Below are positions 25,403 to 31,210 of a DNA stretch of 51,743 nucleotides, piece by piece; within the stretch, counting starts at the first letter, position 1, and every line of letters begins with the position of its first letter. A model generated the notes under the pieces. That model searched no databases. It had not been told where the DNA came from and saw only the letters and a list, made by a program, of their open reading frames with translations. The position numbers and the translations under genes are program-made. Source of the DNA: Acidobacteria bacterium Mor1 (GTDB taxonomy: Bacteria > Acidobacteriota > Polarisedimenticolia > Polarisedimenticolales > Polarisedimenticolaceae); contig CP011806.1 of the NCBI GenBank assembly GCA_001664505.1, forward strand, positions 4,591,835 through 4,643,577, written 5' to 3'.

Positions 25403-26002
25403 TCAGTACTCCCGCCGGCCCTCGAAAGCGCGCTGGAGGGTCAGATCGTCGGTGAATTCCAGGTCGCCCCCGGCGGGCAGGCCCTGGGCCAGGCGCGAGA
25501 CCTTCACGCCGGTCGGCTGGAGCATCCGGGCCAGATAGACCGCGGTGGCCTCACCCTCGACGTTGGGGTTTGTCGCCAGGATGACCTCGGTAAGCTCCTC
25601 CCGGCCGGCGCGGTCCAGCAACTCCTGGGCGCGAATGTCGCCGGGGCCGATATCCCGCAAGGGAGATAGGGCCCCACCCAGGACGTGGTAAAGCCCCCGG
25701 TAGGATCCGGTCCGTTCGAAGGAGACCAGGTTGACCGCCTCCTCGACCACGCAGATGACGCTGCGGTCCCGCCGGGCATCCTGGCAGACCGGGCAGCGCT
25801 CTTCCTCGGCGTAGTTGAAGCACTCCTCGCAGACCTTGATCCGGTCCTTGAGGTCCAGCAGCGCCTGGGCCAGATCGCGGACCTCGTCGGCCGGCGCCTG
25901 GAGCAGATGGAAAGCCAGCCGCTGGGCGGTCTTGCGCCCGACGCTGGGCAGCTTGCCCAGTTCGGCGATGACCCGTTCCAGCGGGGCGGCCAGCAGGCTC
26001 AC
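25403..26002 (-). CDS. recR: Recombination mediator RecR
   Basis: RecR acts with RecO and RecF to load RecA at gaps. The 199-residue protein has the full domain order: a helix-hairpin-helix (LPSVGRKTAQRLAFHLL), a Cys4 zinc motif (CEECFNYAEEERCPVC), a Toprim domain (SVICVVEEAVNLVSFERTGS), and the C-terminal Walker-B-like region (VILATNPNVEGEATAVYLAR, GVKVSRLAQGLPAGGDLEF). GTG at 26002 is the start. It follows ybaB by 7 bp; dnaX-ybaB-recR is a widespread conserved order. Confidence 0.97.
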   Translation of the reverse strand: MSLLAAPLERVIAELGKLPSVGRKTAQRLAFHLLQAPADEVRDLAQALLDLKDRIKVCEECFNYAEEERCPVCQDARRDRSVICVVEEAVNLVSFERTGSYRGLYHVLGGALSPLRDIGPGDIRAQELLDRAGREELTEVILATNPNVEGEATAVYLARMLQPTGVKVSRLAQGLPAGGDLEFTDDLTLQRAFEGRREY

Positions 26003-26009
26003 GGTTTTA

Positions 26010-26309
26010 CTAGCCCAGGCCGGGGATGTTCATGCCGCCGGTCATGCCCTGGGTCAGTTCGGCCAGCTTCTCGTCGACCTTGCGGCCGCACTCGTTGACC
26101 GCGGCCACCACCAGATCTTCCATCATCTCGGGATCGTCAGGGGTGATCGCGTCCTCGGTCAGCTTGACCGAGAGCAGCTCCTTCTTGCCGTTCATCCGGG
26201 CGGTGACCACGCCGCCCCCGGCGGTGGCCTCGACTTCCAGCGCGTCCATCTCCGCCTGGAGCTTGGTCTGCATCTTCTGGAAGTTCTTCATCATTTTGCC
26301 GATGTTCAT
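26010..26309 (-). CDS. ybaB: YbaB/EbfC-family nucleoid-associated protein
   Basis: This small dimeric DNA-binding protein has 99 residues from ATG 26309; the ATG overlaps the dnaX stop as ATGA and has GGAGGAA upstream. It shows the family pattern: MNIGKMMKNFQKMQTKLQAE, VEATAGGGVVTARMNGKKEL, LTEDAITPDDPEMMEDLVVA, then helical AVNECGRKVDEKLAELTQGM and a Gly/Met-rich tail. A longer frame upstream overlaps dnaX extensively and is not family-like. The protein probably acts at the nucleoid and is linked to RecR-dependent repair by operon context. Confidence 0.96.
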   Translation of the reverse strand: MNIGKMMKNFQKMQTKLQAEMDALEVEATAGGGVVTARMNGKKELLSVKLTEDAITPDDPEMMEDLVVAAVNECGRKVDEKLAELTQGMTGGMNIPGLG

Positions 26310-28078
26310 TCGCGTTCCTCCGGTGCGTCCTGGATTGAGTCGTTCCCGGGAACGGCCAATTCCAGCGGCTTGATCTCGACGATCTGTGCTCCGAATTCGT
26401 GGAGCAATTTGGCGACCCCGGGGTCCTTGCGGGCCATCTCGATCAGCTTGCGCCGGTCGGGCGCATCGCCGCGGCCATCCCGCGGGGCCGGGGCGGCCGC
26501 CTCCCGCTCCTCGGCGGCATCGGCGGCGGTGGTTTCCACCTCGATCTTCACCCGCTGCGGCCGTTCTCCACCGGTCAGCGGCGCGGCGCACTCGGCCAGC
26601 AGGTTCTTGTTCTCCTCCCGCTCGAGCTGCCGGCGCAGCATCACCCGCTCGGCGGGCAACTCCACGGTCAGCGTACCCTCGGCGTGGACGATTCGCGAGG
26701 CGGATTCGAGGATGGCGCCGAGCATCGGCTTTTGCCGCTGTACTTCACTGAGGAGCAGCGCGTGGAAGTTGTTGCCCACGGGCCGGGCTGCCGGTGCCGG
26801 GGCTCCCGCGGAGGGGGGCGCGGCGGCCGGTGCAGGCACGGCGGGCCTCGGCGCCGGGCGGTTGTCCACCGCGGGTGCCGGGCCGGGAGCCGGCGCGCGG
26901 CGGGCCGGGTCAGCGTCTAGGGTTTTTTTTTGAGCCGGAGGCGCGGTGCCCGGGGCGCCGAGGCCGGCCAGCACGTCTTCGATCGGCCGCACGGCGCCCA
27001 GGGAGCCGAGGCGGATCATGCAGGCTTCGAACAGGAAGCGCGGGTGGGCCGAGGACTTGAGCGGGTATTCGAGTTCCGCCAGCAGTTGGAACGCCCGGGC
27101 CAGATCCTCGGACGAGAGCGGCTCCGCCGCTTCGAGCAGCGCCTTGGTCTCTTCCTCGGCGCGGGAAACCAGGCCGGCGCGGTCCGGCGCGGCCCGCAGC
27201 ATCATCACGTCCCGCAGCACGCCGATCCATTCCCCCCAGAAGTGGACCAGGTCGTGCCCTTCGTCCATCAACGCGTCGAGCACGCCGAGGAGGGCGGAAA
27301 CGTCCCGGCGGGCCAGGGCGCCGATGCTGTCCAGCAGCACCTGGGACTGCACCGCGCCGAGGACGCGCAGCACATCCTCGTCGGCGACGTCGTTGCCGCA
27401 CGAGGCCAGCACACGTTCCAGCACGGAGAGGGAGTCGCGGACCGAGCCCTCGCCGGCGCGGGCGATGCGGTGCAGCGACGGGTCGGAGATCGTGACCCCT
27501 TCGGCATCGCACAGGCGGCGCAGGTGGCCGGCGACATCCTTGACCGTGACCCGGCGGTACTCGAGGACCTGGCAGCGGGACAGGATCGTCGGCAGCAGCT
27601 TCTGGATCTCGGTGGTGGCCAGCAGGAACACCACCCGCGGCGGCGGCTCTTCCAGGGTCTTGAGCAGCGCGTTGAATGCCGCCTTGGACAGCATGTGGGC
27701 TTCGTCGATGATCAGCAGCTTGTAGCGGTCGCGCACCGGCGGGTAGGCGATGACCTCCTGCAGTTCGCGGATGTCATCGACACCGGTACGGGATGCGGCG
27801 TCGATCTCGAGCACGTCCAGGGCGCGGCTCTCGGCGATCTCGGTGCAGGGGACGCACTCGTTGCAGGGGGTGGGCGTCGGGCCCTTTTCGCAGTTGAGGC
27901 AGCGGGCCAGGATGCGGGCCGCCGAGGTCTTCCCGGTTCCGCGCAGGCCGGCGAAGATGTAGGCGTGGGCGATCCGGTCGGACTGGATCGCGTTGGTCAG
28001 GATCCGCGCGATGTGGGGCTGGCCGACGAGTTCTTCGAAGGTCGTCGGGCGCCACTTGCGAGCCAGAACCTGATACAC
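26306..28078 (-). CDS. dnaX: DNA polymerase III subunit tau (with predicted gamma form by slippage)
   Basis: DnaX is the clamp-loader ATPase. The 590-residue protein starts at GTG 28078: MYQVLARKWRPTTFEELVGQ, P-loop GLRGTGKTS, zinc module (CLNCEKGPTPTPCNECVPC), Walker B LLIIDEAHML, sensor 1 LLATTE and the SRC motif. Domain III ends near residue 365, followed by a Pro/Ala-rich linker and the tau-specific C-terminus. At codons 382-384 the coding strand has nine consecutive A (26923-26931). Insertion or loss of one A leads to a stop within a few codons (TGA or TAG), so a gamma-like product of about 385 residues is expected. Upstream repeats abut the start codon. Confidence 0.95.
   Translation of the reverse strand: MYQVLARKWRPTTFEELVGQPHIARILTNAIQSDRIAHAYIFAGLRGTGKTSAARILARCLNCEKGPTPTPCNECVPCTEIAESRALDVLEIDAASRTGVDDIRELQEVIAYPPVRDRYKLLIIDEAHMLSKAAFNALLKTLEEPPPRVVFLLATTEIQKLLPTILSRCQVLEYRRVTVKDVAGHLRRLCDAEGVTISDPSLHRIARAGEGSVRDSLSVLERVLASCGNDVADEDVLRVLGAVQSQVLLDSIGALARRDVSALLGVLDALMDEGHDLVHFWGEWIGVLRDVMMLRAAPDRAGLVSRAEEETKALLEAAEPLSSEDLARAFQLLAELEYPLKSSAHPRFLFEACMIRLGSLGAVRPIEDVLAGLGAPGTAPPAQKKTLDADPARRAPAPGPAPAVDNRPAPRPAVPAPAAAPPSAGAPAPAARPVGNNFHALLLSEVQRQKPMLGAILESASRIVHAEGTLTVELPAERVMLRRQLEREENKNLLAECAAPLTGGERPQRVKIEVETTAADAAEEREAAAPAPRDGRGDAPDRRKLIEMARKDPGVAKLLHEFGAQIVEIKPLELAVPGNDSIQDAPEERE
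26923..26931 (-). promoter_or_regulatory. A9 slippage site in dnaX
   Basis: The coding strand reads CAA AAA AAA ACC CTA. One extra A gives CAA AAA AAA AAC CCT AGA CGC TGA; one fewer gives CAA AAA AAA CCC TAG. Both shifted frames stop at once, at the junction of domain III and the linker. Thermus dnaX uses a run of nine A for transcriptional slippage in the same place. Confidence 0.75.
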
Positions 28079-28157
28079 CCTTCGACTCCCCCTCGCTGCG
28101 CTCGGGGTCGCTCAGGGCAGGCCCTTCGACATTCGGCTCAGGGCAAGCTCTTTCGAC
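28078..28157. repeat. Cluster of CCCTTCGAC...CTCAGGGC repeats abutting dnaX start
   Basis: One full unit (28078-28119), a shorter unit (28122-28145) and a fragment (28148-28157) match the element at 24076-24124. The first unit starts at the first base of the dnaX GTG codon, and on the minus strand its GGGGGAG and AAGGG sequences lie where the ribosome site should be. Confidence 0.75.
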
Positions 28158-28233
28158 CCGTGGCGATAACCCCTGGGAAGGAATGCTCCGGCAACCCGCC
28201 CGCCCGCGAGCCGCCGGAGCCTCCAACTCTGAT

Positions 28234-28336
28234 GGGACTCGAGTGGACCTGCGGCACCTGCGGCGACCCGCTTACCGTTGCTCCCTTCCGGGCCTGGCGG
28301 GGTTCACGGAACCGCAGTGCACAGGGCTCGAGCCCC
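28234..28336 (-). ncRNA. ffs: Signal recognition particle RNA (small bacterial type)
   Basis: The minus strand contains the universal SRP core GCCAGGCCCGGAAGGGAGCA with the GGAA tetraloop, followed by ACGGTAAGC and the matching descending strand. The ends pair as GGGGCTCGAG with CTCGAGTCCC, giving a single ~103-nt hairpin of the 4.5S type without an Alu domain. It lies upstream of dnaX on the same strand, a common genomic position for ffs. Boundaries are set from terminal pairing and may be off by a few bases. Confidence 0.92.
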
Positions 28337-28381
28337 ATAACTTCTCATCGACCTTTTCGATCGGTCCGGATCGCTCGGAAG

Positions 28382-28469
<88 letters not shown>

Positions 28470-28506
28470 GTGGCTAGCCTCCTGCGAACCGAACCTCTGC
28501 AATGTT

Positions 28507-28597
28507 TGGCGGAGAGGGAGGGATTCGAACCCTCGTGCCTGTTGCCAGACAAGACGCTTTCGAGGCGCCCCCGTTATGACCACTTCGGTACCTCTCC
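28507..28597 (-). tRNA. tRNA-Ser(CGA)
   Basis: This class II tRNA has the same acceptor stem (GGAGAGG/CCTCTCC) as its neighbour, anticodon loop CTCGAAA with anticodon CGA, a long variable arm, T-loop GTTCGAATC and an encoded CCA. It reads UCG. The tandem with tRNA-Ser(GGA) and the shared acceptor and T-arm suggest an old duplication. Confidence 0.95.
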
Positions 28598-28611
28598 GTA
28601 CTTAAACTTAT

Positions 28612-29106
28612 CTATGCCCCCCGGTGGACCGCGCAGGCCGCCGGTTCGGCCTCCTCCCGCCGTTCGCGGAAGAAGTCGACCAGCATCTCCGAGGCCGGCT
28701 CCGAAAGTACGCCGCCGATCACCACGAAGCGATGGTTGAATTGCGTTCCGGCCTCGCGCAGCGCCTCGAGCTTCGAGGTGCCCCCGGCCTTGGGGTCGTG
28801 GGCACCGAAGACCACCGTTTGCACCCGGGCGTGAATCATCGCTCCCAGGCACATCAGGCAGGGTTCGACGGTGCAGTACATCGTCGAGCCGACCAGTCGG
28901 TAGTTGCCGATGTTGCGTGCCGCGTCGCGCAAGGCCACGACCTCGGCATGGGCGGTGGGGTCGACGTCGCCAACCGAACGGTTGCGACCCCGGCCGACGA
29001 TGCGGCCGTCGAGGGTCAGAAGCGCGCCGACCGGAACCTCACCGGCGCTCCGGGCTTCGGCGGCCAGCTCGAGGGCCAAACGCATGTAATCCTCGTGCTG
29101 GTTCAT
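28612..29106 (-). CDS. tadA: tRNA-specific adenosine deaminase TadA
   Basis: TadA converts A34 of tRNA-Arg(ACG) to inosine. The 164-residue protein has the zinc deaminase motifs HAEV and PCLMC, the N-terminal MRLALELAAEARSAGEVPVG and GRGRNR, and YRLVGSTMYCTVEP. All catalytic residues are present: His and Glu in HAE and the two Cys in PCxxC. It is flanked on the same strand by its predicted substrate, tRNA-Arg(ACG), 37 bp upstream, and by tRNA-Ser(CGA) downstream. Cytosolic. Confidence 0.96.
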   Translation of the reverse strand: MNQHEDYMRLALELAAEARSAGEVPVGALLTLDGRIVGRGRNRSVGDVDPTAHAEVVALRDAARNIGNYRLVGSTMYCTVEPCLMCLGAMIHARVQTVVFGAHDPKAGGTSKLEALREAGTQFNHRFVVIGGVLSEPASEMLVDFFRERREEAEPAACAVHRGA

Positions 29107-29142
29107 CGCCCGCTCGTAAACCCGTGACCCGAGACCCTTTAG

Positions 29143-29219
29143 TGGTCGGACCGGAGGGACTCGAACCCCCGACCTACTGGTTCGTAGCCAGTCGCTCTAT
29201 CCAGCTGAGCTACGGTCCG
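29143..29219 (-). tRNA. tRNA-Arg(ACG)
   Basis: The 77-nt sequence folds with acceptor CGGACCG/CGGTCCG, D-arm GCTCAGCTGGATAGAGC, anticodon stem ACTGG/CCAGT enclosing CTACGAA with anticodon ACG, T-arm GGGGGTTCGAGTCCC, discriminator A and an encoded CCA. ACG needs A34-to-I editing by TadA, which is encoded next. Confidence 0.97.
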
Positions 29220-29440
29220 ACGGCTGTCTGGAAGCCGAAAAAGCTTGCGTTTTCCCGACCCCGTTCAAGCAAACCCGGATGGTAGCTCCGTTGCCCGGAA
29301 GTGTCAATGAACGGGCGGTTTCGGGGCCTGAGGACACTCCGGAGTCCGGGGCTCGCGGGTGCGGTGCAGCAGGAGTGGGAGCCCCTGCGCCCGGTGAGCG
29401 TCCTGCCAACCTACTCTCGGAGCAGAAAACGGGAGGCTTC

Positions 29441-31210
29441 ATGGCGATTCTCTCACGACGGTTCACCGCGGCGTGCCTGCTGATCTGCCTGTTCGGTGCG
29501 CCATCTCAGGAACTGCATTCGACGGCGAGGGTCGTGGCGCAATGCCCGGTCGAGGCGCTGCTCGGAGATCCCGGCGCCGGACCGTTGCTGGCGAGCAAGG
29601 CCTACCGGCTGCTGCTGGAAGGGGGGCTCGAGGAACGGCTCGATCTGCTCGACAGCTGCGATCTGTCCGATACGGAAACTCCTCCCGAGGTGATCTCGGC
29701 CTTCGTTCGCTACGTCGAGGACGAACCGGACTTCCGGCGCGTTACCCGTGTCGCCCAGTGGCACCACCTCGAAGAGGGTTGGGAGCTCCTGATCGAGAAA
29801 CTGATGGCCCATCCCTCGGCCTCGGTGCGTGCCAACGCCTATCACTTCGATTCGGAGTCTCCCGAGGCGCAGGCGTTGCTGGAGCAGGCGTGGGAGCGGG
29901 AGACGGTTCCGTGGGCCCGGGCCGAGCTGCTGCAAGCTCTCGGCTATACCGACAGCGAGGTTCACGTCGAGCCGTGCCTCGCCCTGGTCGCCGACCCCGA
30001 TCCGGCGCTGGCCCTCGCCGCGGTGGAGTGTGTCGGGAACTACGGCCCCGACGGCGGGGCGGCGGCGTTGATTCGCCAGCTCGAGGCGGATCGCGGCCTG
30101 CGCCCGGCCTTGCTGTGGGCCATCGATCGTTGGGTTCAGGCCCGCAAGGAAGTCGATATCCCGGATCGGTTGAGAATCGAGGCGCTCTGGGATGTGGTCG
30201 AAGAGAGCGAACGTGGACAGATGCTCCGGGCGCTGGCGCGTCTCGGCTCTCCCAGGGCGAGAGCGAAGCTGGAGCAGATGCTTCGGGATGAGGACGAGGA
30301 GACCGTCAGTCAAGCGCTCTCCGTGGTCGCGGTCTGGCCGGACGATGCCTTCGCGGACACGTTGATCGGCATGGCTACCGAGGGGCCCCGATCGATTCGC
30401 CGGCACGCGATCGACGTGCTGGGAAGGCAGCCCTCTCCCGAGGTAGAGGAGTGGCTCCGCAACGTTCTGTTGTCGTCGCAAGATGCGCGGATCCGGATGG
30501 CGGCACTCTCGAGTCTCTCCGGCTATCAGGCTGCAGCCGAAGCCTGCCGGCAGGCGGACGACCCGGCGCAGTGCGGCGTGGAGTTCTACGCGGCGCGCCC
30601 TCAGGTGAAGGCACTCCTCGAAAGGGTCGCCACCGGAGACTCACCGGAAAGACTGCGAGAACAGGCCCGGTACACCCTGGAGTTGATGTCGAGTGGACAC
30701 GTCGGTTGGGCCTTTCTCGGTGTCCCGTTCTCTTCATTGTCGGTTCAGATCCAGCTACGCGAAGATCTCGCCGCATCCTCGTTTCGTTGTCAGCCCGAGC
30801 CGGGCCTGCTGCATCAGGTGCCTGCCTATCGTCTCTCGGCGGGCGGGAGGCTGGGTATCTACGGGCGCTACCACGACGGGCGCCGAACCTGGTTCGTGAT
30901 TCACTACGGGCCCGAGGGGAATCCCTGCTACGTGCCCGAAGAGGACGTGCAGGTCGTGTTGGGCGGCTCCGGGGCCGACTACCCCGGCTTGACCTGGTCC
31001 GGCACCGAGTTCGATTTGCCCGTGCGCCTGCTCACCGACGACCGGGTAAGTGCGGCGCTTGGGGACGGCCGGCTCACGCTTTTCGATCGGGATGGGGACA
31101 TCGTCGGGGTGCGGATCGAGGGGGCCGGGGAGGAGGCTCTCCTGAGCACCGACGTGATCCATCCTCCGGTCATGGGCAAGCTCCGCCACGCGCTGAATCC
31201 CGAGCGCTAG
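29441..31210 (+). CDS. Secreted HEAT-repeat protein, unknown function
   Basis: The start is ATG 29441, preceded by GGGAGG and followed by a signal peptide (MAILSRRFTAACLLICLFGA); the frame is open to 29279 but without coding character there. The mature protein of about 565 residues contains successive HEAT/armadillo-like helical pairs (for example LLEQAWERETVPWARAELLQ, RIEALWDVVEESERGQMLRA, SPRARAKLEQMLRDEDEETV, SPEVEEWLRNVLLSSQDARI). A beta-rich C-terminal domain of about 140 residues follows (GRLGIYGRYHDGRRTWFVIH). It is likely a periplasmic scaffold. Function is unknown. Confidence 0.8.
   Translation: MAILSRRFTAACLLICLFGAPSQELHSTARVVAQCPVEALLGDPGAGPLLASKAYRLLLEGGLEERLDLLDSCDLSDTETPPEVISAFVRYVEDEPDFRRVTRVAQWHHLEEGWELLIEKLMAHPSASVRANAYHFDSESPEAQALLEQAWERETVPWARAELLQALGYTDSEVHVEPCLALVADPDPALALAAVECVGNYGPDGGAAALIRQLEADRGLRPALLWAIDRWVQARKEVDIPDRLRIEALWDVVEESERGQMLRALARLGSPRARAKLEQMLRDEDEETVSQALSVVAVWPDDAFADTLIGMATEGPRSIRRHAIDVLGRQPSPEVEEWLRNVLLSSQDARIRMAALSSLSGYQAAAEACRQADDPAQCGVEFYAARPQVKALLERVATGDSPERLREQARYTLELMSSGHVGWAFLGVPFSSLSVQIQLREDLAASSFRCQPEPGLLHQVPAYRLSAGGRLGIYGRYHDGRRTWFVIHYGPEGNPCYVPEEDVQVVLGGSGADYPGLTWSGTEFDLPVRLLTDDRVSAALGDGRLTLFDRDGDIVGVRIEGAGEEALLSTDVIHPPVMGKLRHALNPER

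Follow-up and report, generated by a model that had tools for sequence, protein, structure and literature searches.

In Thermus thermophilus, dnaX carries nine A's on the sense strand, with tau encoded in one frame and close stops in both others (Larsen et al. 2000, via PMC1088944 and PMC5009743). The run lies seven-eighths along the gene (PMC1088944) and the arrangement leads to about half gamma by RNA-polymerase slippage (PMC1088944, PMC5009743), a mode to which Atkins et al. tied two separate lysine tRNAs (PMC5009743), an accompanying rather than a strictly defining feature. In Escherichia coli, gamma is made by a -1 frameshift at an in-frame slippery A heptamer, A_AAA_AAG, located two-thirds along the gene (PMC5009743) and accompanied by a Shine-Dalgarno sequence some 10 nt upstream and a closely spaced stem-loop downstream. 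The two-ORF dnaX genes described by Antonov et al. 2013 (PMC3711429) bear 7-10 A's at the gamma/tau boundary; transcriptional realignment is predicted for them, with slippage predicted in nine A10 genes, and it is tau that needs the slip, gamma being the plain product.

Here we analyzed a stretch of 51,743 nt (the window) from Acidobacteria bacterium Mor1, whose dnaX gene holds a candidate slippage site. The features of the locus are:

26306-28078, minus strand: dnaX, tau reading frame, with a GTG start, 590 codons and a product of 63.8 kDa, by translation.
26999-27385, minus strand: domain III (Pfam match PF12169, residues 232-360), kept entire in the predicted gamma.
26780-26959, minus strand: Pro/Ala-rich disordered linker containing the A9 run (residues 374-433; pLDDT below 50 over 374-409 and 411-433).
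26923-26931, minus strand: the A9 run, putative slippage site (T9 on the plus strand), codons 383-386 of 590, CAA AAA AAA ACC.
26917-26919, minus strand: TAG stop met after loss of one A; predicted gamma of 386 residues, ending KKP, 42.1 kDa.
26910-26912, minus strand: TGA stop met after gain of one A, or after a -1 ribosomal shift; predicted gamma of 389 residues, ending KKNPRR, 42.6 kDa.
26393-26767, minus strand: tau-specific folded C-terminal part (residues 438-562, predicted structure), absent from the predicted gamma.
26010-26309, minus strand: ybaB/ebfC-like gene downstream of dnaX, from its ORF and sequence; its start overlaps the dnaX stop.
25403-26002, minus strand: recR, an ORF identified by recognisable sequence and position, in the same direction as dnaX and after the ybaB-like gene.

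The identity of dnaX rests on a profile match to TIGR02397 (dnaX_nterm, 409.6 bits), and comparison of the predicted structure gave E. coli clamp loader gamma chains as the best matches of its N part. The following gene is presumably ybaB/ebfC also by the usual gene order dnaX-ybaB-recR. Just upstream of dnaX lie a small bacterial SRP RNA gene (28234-28333, minus strand) and, beyond it, two tRNA-Ser genes; between dnaX and the SRP RNA gene (28105-28150) a short imperfect repeat, 'CCCTTCGAC...CTCAGGGCA', was seen by eye. An internal promoter or terminator was looked for at dnaX and none was found. The predicted DnaX structure (mean pLDDT 76, from a shallow alignment) is folded to residue 373, disordered over 374-433 and folded again over 438-562. 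Modelled alone from three sequences, the tau C-terminal part gave weak matches to DnaA domain I-like structures and a weak match to the E. coli tau C-terminal domain (2aya, E 0.025; 5fku_E, E 0.007).

The run (codon context GCT CAA AAA AAA ACC CTA GAC) lies 23 residues beyond residue 360, where the Pfam match to domain III ends, and both predicted gamma ends fall in the disordered linker that connects domain III to the tau C-terminal domain. The run, the two stops and the domain boundary are observed directly; according to the structural model, truncation at this point would leave a whole clamp-loader subunit and remove the tau-specific part. A preliminary description of this DNA had reported nine A's at these positions and a stop soon after either slip, and was right in both respects: T9 on the plus strand is A9 on the dnaX coding strand, and losing or gaining one A leads to KKP-TAG or KKNPRR-TGA, respectively. 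It had set the run at the end of domain III, whereas it lies beyond the domain in the linker, and had given the short form about 40 kDa, for which the prediction is about 42 kDa. Its statement that Thermus has its run at the same point is correct as regards the gamma/tau boundary but not as regards relative position, which is 65% along dnaX here and seven-eighths in Thermus (PMC1088944).

In its layout, the locus is closest to the Thermus gene: there are at least about nine A's on the sense strand at the gamma/tau boundary, the full tau frame is open on the template with near stops in both other frames, and tRNA-Lys(UUU) and tRNA-Lys(CUU) (anticodons ttt and ctt) are both present in the genome. 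It differs in belonging to another phylum, in the place of the run, in the A9-A11 range found among its relatives and in that slippage is predicted here and was measured in Thermus. With the two-ORF dnaX genes it shares the poly-A at the gamma/tau boundary and the predicted transcriptional realignment, but here the template encodes tau as a single open frame of 590 codons, with no frame transition needed. The E. coli gene resembles it in making gamma about two-thirds along the gene and in having an in-frame slippery A heptamer; in contrast, the run here exceeds the E. coli heptamer in length, and neither of the two E. coli stimulators is conserved. The open-access literature searched contained no earlier report of dnaX slippage in Acidobacteriota; the type of slippage is already known from Thermus, while the site appears to be new in this phylum.

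We consider it likely that the A9 run has been selected as a slippage site, at which slipping of RNA polymerase lets dnaX yield two clamp-loader subunits. RNA polymerase would slip on the nine A's and produce a mixture of mRNAs with 9, 10, 8 or other numbers of A's. Those with nine (or nine plus or minus three) would be translated into tau, of 590 residues and 63.8 kDa, and those with other numbers would immediately meet TGA or TAG, giving a gamma of 386-389 residues and about 42 kDa, which would retain the ATPase and collar domains I-III and be devoid of the C-terminal tau domain. We infer that slippage occurs, that it takes place at the RNA rather than the ribosome level, and in what proportion.

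That the run did not arise by chance is clear from its rarity. The DNA at the dnaX locus is about 67% GC, and the window contains 61 A/T runs of 4 nt, 14 of 5 nt and one of 7 nt; runs of 6 nt are absent, and the single run of 9 nt is that of dnaX. AAA provides 45 of the 446 lysine codons of the window (10%) and CAA 11% of the glutamine codons; among the Lys-Lys pairs of its likely genes (27 counted), AAAAAA is found only at the dnaX site. Only 0.24% of codon positions have a stop within four codons in each of the shifted frames. In the whole GC-rich genome (5.985 Mb, a single contig) there are only four distinct A/T runs of at least nine; of the other three, two lie between apparent genes and one in a glgB-like frame. 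This second in-frame A9 (L006:1501-1509) falls within about the final twelve codons of the glgB-like gene, in a tail that looks dispensable. A hand calculation based on the 28 other A9+ runs in 43.9 Mb gave about 0.001 chance runs on the sense strand of ten 240-nt linkers, against 9 seen, the genomes concerned being related. Illumina sequencing reads homopolymer runs such as A9 well. According to its published description, the genome is circular, measures 5.99 Mb with 66.8% GC, was sequenced by Illumina and belongs to an associate of Moorea producens JHB (PMC5006271). A segment of 3859 bp in the Moorena bouillonii PNG assembly (NZ_MKZS01000001.1, L037:225-4083) is 100% identical to window positions 26996-30854; at its dnaX end the GC content falls abruptly, where cyanobacterial sequence takes over. 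The assembly appears to be chimeric here, having taken in DNA of a Mor1-like associate; against this reading stands the negative PCR result for the M. bouillonii culture in the Mor1 paper (PMC5006271).

All ten genomes of the order, that of the window included, were compared. Nine have an A9 (the window), A10 (seven genomes) or A11 (one) run in the dnaX linker, always with the tau frame open; in the A11 case the run starts at a different codon position, so that the tau frame is preserved. This conservation is observed directly. Domains I-III are 62-70% identical to those of the window's DnaX at the protein level, while the 60-nt flanks anchored on the run are unalignable, with 32% and 33% identity between genomes, about chance level. 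Retention of the run while its flanks diverged to this extent supports a function in slippage. In two genomes (G006, 2.8 Mb; G007, 4.5 Mb) the dnaX run is the sole A9+ run. Furthermore, in all nine run-bearing genomes both shifted-frame stops are closer than those met from randomly drawn codons within that gene (P 0.002-0.033 per genome; 8e-10 combined if independent, which relatives are not). The tenth genome, G009 (L014), has A3 at most in its dnaX linker, a full tau frame and no obvious replacement signal in dnaX. Gamma is there either not made or made in another way, and the absence of the run implies that gamma by the A-run route is dispensable in this organism. The preliminary description had called for a check of relatives, where the run proves to be lost only in G009, and its argument that a homopolymer kept in GC-rich DNA at a useful truncation point speaks for function is borne out by the rarity of the run, its conservation and the near stops. 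Judged from these comparisons, the A9 run, itself confirmed in the sequence, is very probably functional.

In all, we sampled 54 dnaX genes of the phylum, one of which (G052) led to family f24, and 8 further genomes of this family. The f24 genomes (GC 35-52%) show an A10 run shortly after domain III in all eight usable dnaX genes, each with the tau frame open and stops in both shifted frames within about four codons; a ninth genome was left out since its dnaX is cut by a contig end. In seven of them the run begins 5-14 codons past the end of the domain III alignment; for L131, the eighth, an early end of this alignment prevents a comparison of the offset. A9 is also present in the dnaX of G010, which belongs to the same class as the order, with the tau frame open and a near stop in one shifted frame only; the frame entered after losing one A stays open for 112 codons, which counts against a slippage reading there. 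The remaining 42 class and phylum genes have A6 or shorter at the corresponding place; most of the class and phylum sampled is without such a run, a point against the slippage reading. The control dnaX genes (L040-L062, high-GC actinobacterial and others, several of them partial) lack any A7+ run over the part covered. In a tree of domains I-III the order forms one clade (100/100), and three changes of the run trait are needed on it, of which well-supported branches force at least two. The A10 run of f24 apparently had a separate origin from that of the order. We lean towards the view that, besides Thermus, dnaX transcriptional slippage arose at least twice in Acidobacteriota (in the order and in f24) as a recurrent way to gamma, its length drifting between 9 and 11, whereas selection would maintain the tau phase and the two hidden stops. 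The proposal of a functional slippage site made in the preliminary description is thereby supported, with nine of ten order genomes keeping the run between diverged flanks and f24 having A10 in all eight usable genes.

G and C runs were considered as substitutes in relatives devoid of an A-run. The G7-G8 runs of a few of them encode Gly-Gly inside domain III, and the C8-C9 runs of G015 and G020 lie in proline-rich linkers; both are indistinguishable from GC-rich composition, and neither was retained. Both sampled members of family f16 (L076/G044 and L128/G059) have dnaX genes of 416-426 codons that stop shortly beyond domain III, and none of the frames up to the ybaB gene encodes a tau C-terminal part; by their sequence, these genes are apparently gamma-only.

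Gamma might instead be made from a uniform mRNA, by programmed -1 ribosomal frameshifting or by ribosome sliding on AAA codons. The heptamer A_AAA_AAA is in frame within the run, the E. coli site A_AAA_AAG occurs in five order members, all nine run-bearing members have a nearby -1 stop, and in the window the RNA surrounding the run gives a somewhat more stable fold than its shuffled versions (z -2.5 to -2.8, with about -2.8 for 141 nt). The relatives' RNAs do not fold better than shuffles, however, and we found no Shine-Dalgarno-like stimulator within the 40 nt that precede the run in the window, nor one at a consistent position in relatives, nor a conserved or unusually stable downstream stem-loop across the order relatives folded. 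In G001 and G005, inspection by eye showed a 6-bp hairpin directly next to the run; as upstream folds are not better than shuffles in seven order members, it was rejected as a slippage stimulator. Moreover, a -1 shift needs just one stop and seven A's, whereas stops are near in both shifted frames and every run is 9-11 long; in E. coli, A_AAA_AAA shifts far less readily than A_AAA_AAG (PMC5009743), and ribosomes normally read two AAA codons in a row without sliding (PMC4363877). A run longer than seven in every case, the lack of a Shine-Dalgarno and of a conserved stem-loop, and the two lysine tRNAs thus favour RNA-polymerase slippage, which we rank first, with ribosomal frameshifting or sliding second and unlikely as the sole route; both could operate together.

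A run without function is improbable in our judgement. The linker is tolerant of change, G009 lacks the run and slippery runs may persist by chance, so that a lysine-bearing linker could have come to use AAA fortuitously or have inherited the run without selection. Against this stand the scarcity of AAA and CAA codons, the near absence of other long runs from the order genomes, flanks diverged to chance level, near stops in both frames and the same arrangement in a second clade. Least of all do we credit a DNA-level switch in which replication slippage would toggle cells between tau and gamma-only states. Homopolymers of nine do mutate more than other sequence, but the tau frame is open in the nine order members, in G010 and in all eight usable f24 genes despite lengths of 9, 10 and 11, and dnaX is essential, so a tau-less cell should be counter-selected.

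The need for gamma beside tau has long been debated. The maintenance of the run as nearly the sole one in several GC-rich genomes, and in two lineages, suggests that cells benefit from a short form of DnaX. G009, in which the run was lost naturally, and family f16, with its apparently gamma-only genes, make up a comparative set for asking when each form is needed, and the natural sites of 9, 10 and 11 A's allow slippage by RNA polymerase and by the ribosome to be compared.
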